The position numbers and the translations under genes are program-made. Shown piece by piece: positions 59,958 to 60,512 of a stretch of DNA of 64,000 bases (position 1 is its first letter; each line of letters begins with the position of its first letter). Below the pieces are notes generated by a model that made no database searches, was not told where the DNA came from, and saw only the letters and a list, made by a program, of their open reading frames with translations. Source of the DNA: Chryseobacterium paludis. Lineage in GTDB: Bacteria > Bacteroidota > Bacteroidia > Flavobacteriales > Weeksellaceae. The DNA lies in NCBI RefSeq assembly GCF_025403485.1, contig NZ_CP099966.1, forward strand, positions 2,232,001 to 2,296,000, in the 5' to 3' direction.

Positions 59958-60031
59958 GGGTGCGTAGCTCAGCTGGATAGAGCATCTGCCTTCTAAGCAG
60001 ACGGTCAAAGGTTCGAATCCTTTCGCGCTCA
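59958..60031 (+). tRNA. tRNA-Arg (TCT), copy 2
   Basis: 74 bases, the same sequence as copy 1 at 56929-57002 (anticodon TCT). The spacer to tRNA-Pro is shorter (25 instead of 46 bases). Confidence 0.95.
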
Positions 60032-60034
60032 CTT

Positions 60035-60066
60035 AAAACTCACAATCTTTATTGTGAGTTTTTTTG
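60035..60066 (+). terminator. terminator after tRNA-Arg copy 2
   Basis: AAACTCACAAT-CTTT-ATTGTGAGTTT plus T-run, as after tRNA-Arg copy 1. Confidence 0.85.
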
Positions 60067-60097
60067 TTTACATAATTCATGTATTAATTCACACAAA

Positions 60098-60153
60098 ATA
60101 GAGCATCCCGATTGTAATCGGGACAGTCAAAGGTTCGAATCCTTTCGCGCTCA
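60098..60153 (+). repeat. truncated tRNA-Arg fragment B
   Basis: ATAGAGCAT, then TCCCGATT-GT-AATCGGGA, then the tRNA-Arg variable/T-arm/3' strand (one change, GGACAGTC). The sequence in front (TTTACATAATTCATGTATTA) matches the start of the GIY-YIG gene region (TTTACATTAGTTTCATGTGT), so B looks like an internally deleted copy of that element. Confidence 0.8.
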
Positions 60154-60159
60154 CTTTAG

Positions 60160-60188
60160 AACTCACAATCTTTATTGTGAGTTTTTTT
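60160..60188 (+). terminator. duplicated tRNA terminator after fragment B
   Basis: GAACTCACAAT-CTTT-ATTGTGAGTTTTTTTG, the third such copy followed by element-like sequence. Confidence 0.8.
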
Positions 60189-60203
60189 GTTTACATTAGT
60201 TTC

Positions 60204-60476
60204 ATGTGTTATTTCTACATACTTTTTTCTAAATCTTTAGACAAATATTATATTGGTCATTCTTGTGAAAGTCTACAAGAAAGGTTAAGAAAACATCTTT
60301 CAAACCATAAAGGTTTTACAGCAAAAACCAAAGACTGGACTATTATTTATTTTGAACCTTTCAATACCAAATCCGAAGCATACAAAAGAGAAAGAGAAGT
60401 AAAAGCTTGGAAAAGTAAGTATAAAATACAAAACCTTATTAAACCATCAGATAAGATACAGCATCCCGATTTTTAA
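60204..60476 (+). CDS. GIY-YIG nuclease-domain protein ending in tRNA-derived sequence
   Basis: 90 residues from the ATG at 60204; the reading from 60177 starts inside the terminator with a GTG. The GIY-YIG motifs are [19 protein letters not shown], the Arg in ERLRKHL and the catalytic-type Glu in [12 protein letters not shown]. This is the minimal UvrC-N/YhbQ-like domain (about 75-80 residues) with nothing attached. The last codons (KIQHPDF) and the stop lie inside the palindrome of tRNA-Arg fragment C. Proteins of this type cut DNA; the fusion of its end with a tRNA 3' half suggests a selfish nuclease that targets tRNA-Arg. Confidence 0.85.
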
Positions 60477-60512
60477 TCGGGACGGTCAAAGGTTCGAATC
60501 CTTTCGCGCTCA
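60455..60512 (+). repeat. truncated tRNA-Arg fragment C at the GIY-YIG gene end
   Basis: GATACAGCA, then TCCCGATT-TTT-AATCGGGA, then GACGGTCAAAGGTTCGAATC to CGCGCTCA. Unlike A and B it is not followed by the tRNA terminator; after CACTT the sequence changes into the desaturase region. The missing terminator start reappears at 61911. Confidence 0.8.

Follow-up and report, generated by a model that had tools for sequence, protein, structure and literature searches.

Two intact tRNA-Arg(TCT) genes (56929-57003 and 59958-60032) were identified with ARAGORN in the stretch of Chryseobacterium paludis DNA analysed here (64,000 nucleotides, hereafter the window). The former belongs to a Ser-Pro-Arg tRNA cluster, and the latter, an intact host gene also recognised by Rfam, stands beside the intact tRNA-Pro(TGG) gene of the host cluster (59858-59933; ARAGORN, Rfam). 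All features of these two loci described below are on the plus strand. Downstream of the intact genes there are three dead copies of the tRNA-Arg 3' part: fragment A (57070-57127) at the Ser-Pro-Arg locus, and fragments B (60098-60153) and C (60455-60512) at the Pro-Arg locus. Each begins with 8-10 nt of the D-loop/D-stem, continues with a hairpin of the form TCCCGATT-(2 or 3 nt)-AATCGGGA, and ends with the variable loop, the T arm and the acceptor 3' strand. A reading of this DNA from its sequence alone had placed a palindrome in the position of the anticodon arm and had listed A and B as two further tRNA-Arg halves; indeed, the native 17 nt are replaced by 18-19 nt in the dead copies, and A and B are both present, each with its hairpin.

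These fragments account for all such sequences in the window. Extra tRNA-Arg 3' tails (at most 4 substitutions, outside the intact tRNAs) occur in the 64 kb at exactly three places (57101-57127, 60127-60153 and 60486-60512), and there are just three palindromes of the type TCCCG(4-14 nt)CGGGA (57080-57097 in A, 60106-60123 in B and 60464-60482 in C), all of them directly upstream of these tails. The intact tRNA-Arg gene of the Pro-Arg locus is followed by a terminator-like hairpin with a T run (60034-60069), which is repeated in the units together with the tRNA 3' part. Fuzzy matching placed terminator copies behind both intact tRNA-Arg genes and behind fragments A (57007-57041 and 57134-57166 lie around it) and B (60157-60192, just 5' of the ORF described next), and found none behind fragment C.

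The ORF (60204-60476), recognised as a GIY-YIG nuclease gene by Pfam PF01541, its homologues and dN/dS, starts with the ATG at 60204 and encodes 90 aa. Its last codons lie in the tRNA remnant and hairpin of fragment C, and its stop codon TAA (60474-60476) lies within the 60464-60482 palindrome, so the ORF ends inside a truncated tRNA-Arg copy, as had been noticed at first sight. Fragments A and B, in turn, belong to units that have no ORF.

Elsewhere in the window, three tandem tRNA-Asp(GTC) genes (11776-12064, minus strand) are accompanied by zero extra copies of their 3' tail; cousin nucleases at tRNA-Asp genes exist in some other genomes of the genus. A DUF805b RNA match (27775-27807) barely exceeds its gathering score (36.4 versus 35.6 bits).

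The GIY-YIG protein

The 90-aa product is a member of the GIY-YIG superfamily (PF01541, E=2.7e-15, 56.9 bits against a cut-off of 22.6). The columns that are invariant across 30 members of the family include Y5, Y16, G18, R27, H31 and E63, among which we presume the catalytic-type residues of this domain to be. The proteins of the family are about 80-95 aa long and contain a single GIY-YIG domain, and none of five members was named above the cut-off by NCBIfam. In seven pairs from the genus with finite dS (first 80 codons; the pairs share sequences and are not all independent), dN/dS ranged from 0.06 to 0.28, while dS was saturated in an eighth pair. Judged by these ratios, the ORF is under purifying selection. 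Some nuclease copies in the genus contain internal stops.

The nearest solved structures by profile comparison were 1zg2 (E=8.1e-16), 1ywl (E=3.6e-13) and Slx1 (E=5.1e-8). Foldseek likewise gave UPF0213 and Slx1 as the nearest, but weakly (best E 3.4e-3, from a model with a moderate mean pLDDT of 80.8). The protein resembles the UPF0213 (YhbQ-like) proteins and the structure-specific nuclease Slx1 in its GIY-YIG domain; the function of UPF0213 is unsettled, and we know of no tie of either group to tRNA genes, nor of any mobility. The protein looks like a bare catalytic domain, which hints at structure-specific cutting as a prediction.

Occupied and empty tRNA-Arg sites in the genus

The nuclease was matched (E<=1e-6) in 24 of 60 genomes of the same genus; the identity is at least 61% in 18 of these, whereas the other 6 have distant cousins of 37-43% only. 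Eight cousin loci were inspected (including two pairs that are neighbours or share one genome); five have a tRNA-Asp or tRNA-Asn gene upstream and three gave no tRNA call. The tRNA-Pro/tRNA-Arg pair was matched in 60/60 genomes, and the census of tRNA-Arg sites covered 60 of 73 merged regions from 57 of these 60 genomes. Among its 112 tRNA-Arg(TCT) sites, 78 are empty, 15 contain dead copies only and 14 contain dead copies and the ORF, under a pattern that demands both the hairpin and the tail, so that "empty" may hide decayed copies and a few such sites lie near contig ends; the remaining 5 have a nuclease match with no recognised dead copy. Relatives with empty tRNA-Arg sites, for which the sequence-only reading had advised to look, are thus common. 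For the window's own Pro-Arg locus, the fetched regions (60 regions, 57 genomes) included no syntenic empty site.

An earlier scan that had counted some weak tail matches as fragments was replaced by this hairpin-requiring count and by a hairpin-blind one. In the latter, all tail copies with at most 3 errors (50/50) carry the hairpin, as do 6 of 14 weaker tails (4-7 errors). The units form arrays of up to five dead copies, with a repeat period of mostly 346-361 bp for ORF-bearing units and mostly 122-149 bp for ORF-less ones. The suggestion that fragment B is the same element with its ORF deleted agrees well with the occurrence of these short units elsewhere in the genus, and with one strain in particular: Chryseobacterium sp. 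ISL-6 matches the window at 779 of 782 aligned positions (plus a 1-bp indel, end overhang apart) and has one additional ORF-less unit, of 122 bp, that is absent from the window.

Two comparisons bear on movement. In an empty site (L142_408) the order is tRNA, terminator and flank; in an occupied one (L107_389) it is tRNA, terminator, spacer, remnant, hairpin, tRNA 3' part, terminator and a related flank, and this flank, behind the last dead copy, matches the post-tRNA flank of the empty site at 87.6% from nt 3 on. In the second case, genome G056 contains an ORF copy at its Ser-Pro-Arg locus that is 98-99% identical to three copies at the Pro-Arg locus on another contig; the latter are 97-99% identical among themselves, and the best match in another species reaches 82% (25 sequences compared). 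The common block of 470 bp (98.7%) extends from 3 nt 5' of the tRNA-Arg gene to the terminator behind the dead copy, and outside it the flanks are unrelated, matching in the upstream tRNA-Pro only. These near-identical copies fit a spread of the unit between tRNA loci, as far as sequence comparison can indicate. The pattern could also be explained by gene conversion between paralogous tRNA clusters, with no part played by the nuclease.

Pieces that retain the 5' half were also seen. Upstream of its tRNA-Arg gene, locus L017 has a pseudo-tRNA-Arg of this kind, with a hairpin in its anticodon arm. A similar pseudo-tRNA-Arg with an anticodon-arm hairpin is found in L030 (reverse complement, about 180-900), where it forms a tandem repeat together with copies of tRNA-Arg that have a tRNA-Ser-like 3' end.

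tRNA-linked units across Bacteroidota

PF01541 matches were found in 198 of 198 genomes, and 90 of the loci (the 30 best and 60 of 107 further listed places, with flanks of up to 1.5 kb) were examined. An intact tRNA gene on the same strand adjoins the ORF in 26 of them (upstream in 24), and the flanks of the other 64 contain zero tRNA genes on either strand. Behind the ORF, 22 of the 26 tRNA-linked loci have a region that resembles the adjoining tRNA more than any of 100 shuffles did; among the other four, L207 and L089 have the tRNA copy in front of the ORF. The match behind the ORF of L104 is due to a second intact tRNA-Ser gene, the order there being tRNA-Ser(GGA), nuclease match and tRNA-Ser(CGA), so that the copy past the ORF is an intact tRNA with a different anticodon. 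A second kind of small GIY-YIG gene, often with a KKKEALI-like tail, was noticed away from tRNAs (L080, L083, L085, L088, L091, L095 and L100); by eye, it is closely trailed by palindromic-looking repeats, e.g. ttcgacaagctcagcctgac or cgactgcgctcgaac, and may represent a nuclease-palindrome pair.

A profile of 30 members (A3) matched 239 of 395 genomes at E<=1e-12, possibly counting some members that are not linked to a tRNA gene. Outside the 90 loci mentioned above, 76 were taken from its listing, best scores first. An intact tRNA gene on the ORF strand is adjacent in 71 of the 76 (upstream in 58 and downstream only in 13), no tRNA was found at 5, and at 54 of the 76 the ORF is followed by a partial copy of a tRNA. 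Nuclease ORFs of this kind therefore do sit at tRNA pieces elsewhere, and analogous elements on other tRNAs, for which the sequence-only reading had likewise proposed a search, were found across Bacteroidota. Chance was rejected as an explanation on these counts. A clear 3' part is missing at a number of loci. At the 13 loci with a downstream tRNA, a 5' tRNA piece before the ORF beats the shuffles in 12, in some narrowly (27 versus 26 in L287); the units therefore come in two mirror-image polarities, and in the 5' type the hairpin frequently lies, by eye, in the D loop.

Perfect stems of at least 7 bp were counted at 37 of 69 distinct loci versus 96 of 1380 random windows. In this count the best stem per window was taken for loci and random windows alike, and therefore a second test was made with anchors of 9-10 nt around the native anticodon arm, derived from the intact tRNA only, for tRNA types chosen after the first count because it had located their junction in the anticodon arm: Arg(TCT), Val, Ala, Pro(CGG/TGG), Gly(TCC) and Lys. 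A hairpin-forming insert of 16-30 nt stands in place of the arm at 30 of the 34 anticodon-arm-type loci, and 4 of the 34 have no such insert between the anchors. Boundaries are thus common to these 30 loci, in which the insert is bordered by the tRNA sequences normally found on either side of the arm. Within loci, pairs 1-7 (from outside) are complementary in 27-30 of the 30 inserts (pair 7 in 29/30); across loci, the frequency of complementarity is 0.73, 0.55, 0.90, 1.00, 0.81, 0.56 and 0.39, respectively. Covariation over these 30 loci is seen at pairs 2, 6 and 7, whereas the outer arm hardly varies. Imperfectly pairing inserts were found in L213, L263, L265 and L305. For Met, Cys and Asp tRNAs the first count placed the junctions outside the anticodon arm.

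Such a hairpin might itself be the true mobile unit, with small GIY-YIG nucleases moving TCCCG..CGGGA-type palindromes in Bacteroidota as RAYTs do with REP sequences, and with tRNA arms, which form DNA hairpins too, as the entry sites of a hairpin exchange. Several observations agree with this: the outer TCCCG/CGGGA arms recur on several tRNA types while the inner pairs change with compensation, the site of the junction varies with the tRNA, being in the anticodon arm, in the T arm or close to the variable loop and, in units of the 5' type as inspected by eye, frequently in the D loop, and the nearest relatives in sequence and fold are UPF0213 and the structure-specific Slx1, although the fold matches are weak. 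Palindromes TCCCGA(2-8 nt)TCGGGA number 0-111 per genome in 148 Bacteroidota genomes, above the reversed control in many of them (in G071 and G194 the control has more). They become more numerous as profile hits per genome increase (rho 0.51; 0.27 within families, p=0.006), a correlation that is partly circular because the elements' own palindromes are included. By eye, extra similar palindromes were seen behind the ORF of L012 and L014, in the T-loop region of other dead tRNA copies. However, all three palindromes of the window sit in dead tRNA copies, and the loci studied offer no example of a lone hairpin entering an intact tRNA. We regard this explanation as unlikely.

Stem covariation would suit a functional RNA too, and together with the purifying selection on an ORF that ends in a tRNA-like copy, on the strand of the tRNA, it agrees with a system that serves the host, in which the nuclease acts on RNA, be it the tRNA or the nuclease mRNA itself, while the dead copy with its hairpin is a regulating or protecting RNA element. 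Against such a role, the units are patchy, with most tRNA-Arg(TCT) sites empty, some nuclease copies have internal stops, there are tandem arrays without an ORF, and both 5' and 3' mirror types exist. Moreover, dead copies of the 3' type have no acceptor 5' strand, and therefore the whole tRNA-like fold is not kept. We consider a host function of this kind quite improbable.

A tree of the nucleases was made from 100 proteins of 73 genomes or records (69 columns, with tRNA-derived C-termini excluded and two rows shorter than 70 aa dropped). With 23 tRNA labels, the label changed 38 times on the tree, versus a mean of 76.7 for shuffled labels, and the same held for labels shuffled within host families (mean 66.0, minimum 60); in either case 0 of 200 shuffles were as low. 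All 10 Met loci form a single clade (100/94), as do the 5 Cys (83/92) and the 3 Gly(GCC) loci (99/97), and 3 Leu loci with three anticodons from three host families also form one clade (100/80). G246 alone contains members on Cys, Ser, Pro, Asp and Asn tRNAs. The labels that cluster poorly are Asp (8 changes in 13 rows), Ser(GCT) (6 in 8) and Val (5 in 13), and Ser(TGA), Gly(TCC) and Pro(TGG) clustered no better than shuffled labels. The Met, Cys and Gly(GCC) clades are each confined to one host family, which is compatible with vertical descent. Starred inner branches number 31 of 97, the limited support being due to the short alignment. As judged from this tree, nuclease clades track tRNA identity, though not for every tRNA.

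This tracking is one of three features that would go unexplained if the units were products of passive tandem duplication, favoured by a tendency of tRNA genes to recombine, and the nuclease were a bystander; the others are the replacement of the anticodon arm by a hairpin (30/34 loci) and the contrast in tRNA adjacency (64 of 90 loci without a tRNA versus 71 of 76 with one). The direct repeats of the 3' part and terminator would favour unequal exchange, and tRNA clusters are duplicated both in the window and in L030, yet as a full explanation we find passive duplication very improbable.

The proposed element and related systems

We favour, with moderate confidence, the reading that the units represent a selfish, SegB-like element which is anchored in a tRNA locus and uses duplicated tRNA parts as homology arms. 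A small selfish element at tRNA-Arg had been suspected from the window, and this core of the proposal is supported by the empty sites, the elements on other tRNAs and the G056 copies. Its layout had to be revised: in most cases the units repeat in tandem, each with a tRNA 3' part, a terminator, a spacer or the ORF, and a hairpin, and a mirror-image 5' type exists as well. The anatomy, the empty and occupied sites, the tandem units, the nuclease clades that track tRNA identity, the covarying hairpin, the purifying selection and the near-identical copies at two loci are features of the sequences themselves; from them we infer the cleavage, the position of the cut, the route of repair and the role of the hairpin as a signal for the nuclease or for recombination.

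In the proposed mechanism, a minimal GIY-YIG nuclease with a single tRNA gene as its target would break this gene at or beside the anticodon arm (at another arm in other clades), and repair would copy a unit consisting of the tRNA 3' part, terminator, nuclease ORF, short tRNA remnant and hairpin into the break. During gap repair, the left side of the break would pair with the tRNA 5' part and the right side with the 3' part of the donor unit. Since the unit carries a spare tRNA 3' part, the tRNA on the left would be restored, and the old 3' part would be displaced to the right behind the hairpin, dead. With duplicated tRNA parts as homology arms, the element could enter paralogous or foreign copies of the same tRNA gene, and tandem arrays and ORF-less satellite units may arise where the 3' parts recombine unequally. 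In a classical homing endonuclease element the carrier's cut site is destroyed by the insertion; here the dead copy has lost the anticodon arm and the adjoining tRNA is intact. As this neighbour keeps its full sequence, the host would stay cuttable if that tRNA is the target. A broader proposition, which we put forward as possible though doubtful, is a hairpin-exchange type of mobile DNA: each clade would recognise the hairpin of one tRNA arm and swap in a TCCCG..CGGGA-type hairpin, the carried tRNA part restoring the gene; such elements would share out the tRNA genes of Bacteroidota, and related nucleases would move the dispersed palindromes.

The closest parallel is SegB, a free-standing GIY-YIG homing endonuclease of T-even phages. 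According to excerpts of its description, the segB gene adjoins tRNA genes of many isotypes, and in phage T6 the breaks made by SegB, with dependence on recombination genes and with microhomology between tRNA and segB ends, lead to tandem tRNA+segB units (PMC13096335). As far as these excerpts go, the likeness comprises the nuclease gene adjoining tRNAs, the tandem tRNA+nuclease units and the microhomology of tRNA and gene 3' ends, whereas they mention neither a hairpin-swapped tRNA copy nor a favoured isotype (PMC13096335). SegB is phage-borne, whereas our elements are chromosomal, with nuclease clades that track tRNA identity. Adjacency to tRNA genes is common to both (26 of 90 PF01541 loci and 71 of 76 best-scoring profile loci). 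SegB is a larger protein with its own DNA-binding part; the present family, of about 80-95 aa with one GIY-YIG domain, has no such full-length protein. By analogy, T6 SegB serves as a working precedent for the proposed mechanism.

Other known systems resemble the units in part. REP/RAYT systems also tie short hairpins to a small nuclease gene and have non-autonomous copies, but RAYTs are HUH/Y1 enzymes, REP systems contain no tRNA copy, and a system of this type was rejected, the gene here being GIY-YIG and not an HUH (Y1) transposase. Integrative elements with attB in tRNA genes restore the tRNA on insertion from a carried copy, and a piece of the tRNA ends up displaced at the opposite end, as it would with the units; however, the unit has no integrase, measures about 360 bp with the ORF, and its displaced piece bears a hairpin. 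An element with a tyrosine or serine integrase was rejected, GIY-YIG being the sole notable ORF of the unit. A group I intron in the tRNA was likewise rejected: no Rfam intron family reached the gathering threshold, and the intact tRNA has the element at its side.

That free-standing GIY-YIG genes occur close to tRNAs of phages is already known. Searches of the open-licence literature listed nothing on chromosomal genes of this family associated with copies of a tRNA, and to that extent the chromosomal, largely isotype-specific, hairpin-marked form of about 360 bp with its ORF-less satellites is apparently new. If the model is true, a nuclease of about 90 residues and a borrowed piece of tRNA suffice for a selfish chromosomal element, the tRNA genes of Bacteroidota are parasitised in a largely isotype-specific manner, and tRNA duplications and pseudogenes in this phylum can be element-driven. 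The family would offer candidate natural tRNA-specific nucleases and a chromosomal counterpart to phage SegB amplification. It also explains database proteins with a C-terminus derived from a tRNA copy, which are labelled excinuclease ABC subunit C or GIY-YIG nuclease family protein.

The window protein had zero matches in plasmid and phage records at E 1e-8 and 1e-5, which thus point to no vehicle between cells, and two matches in viral contigs, both at contig ends. The IMG/VR viral contigs L255 and L256 end at tRNA-GIY-YIG units, as if prophage borders adjoined the same tRNA.
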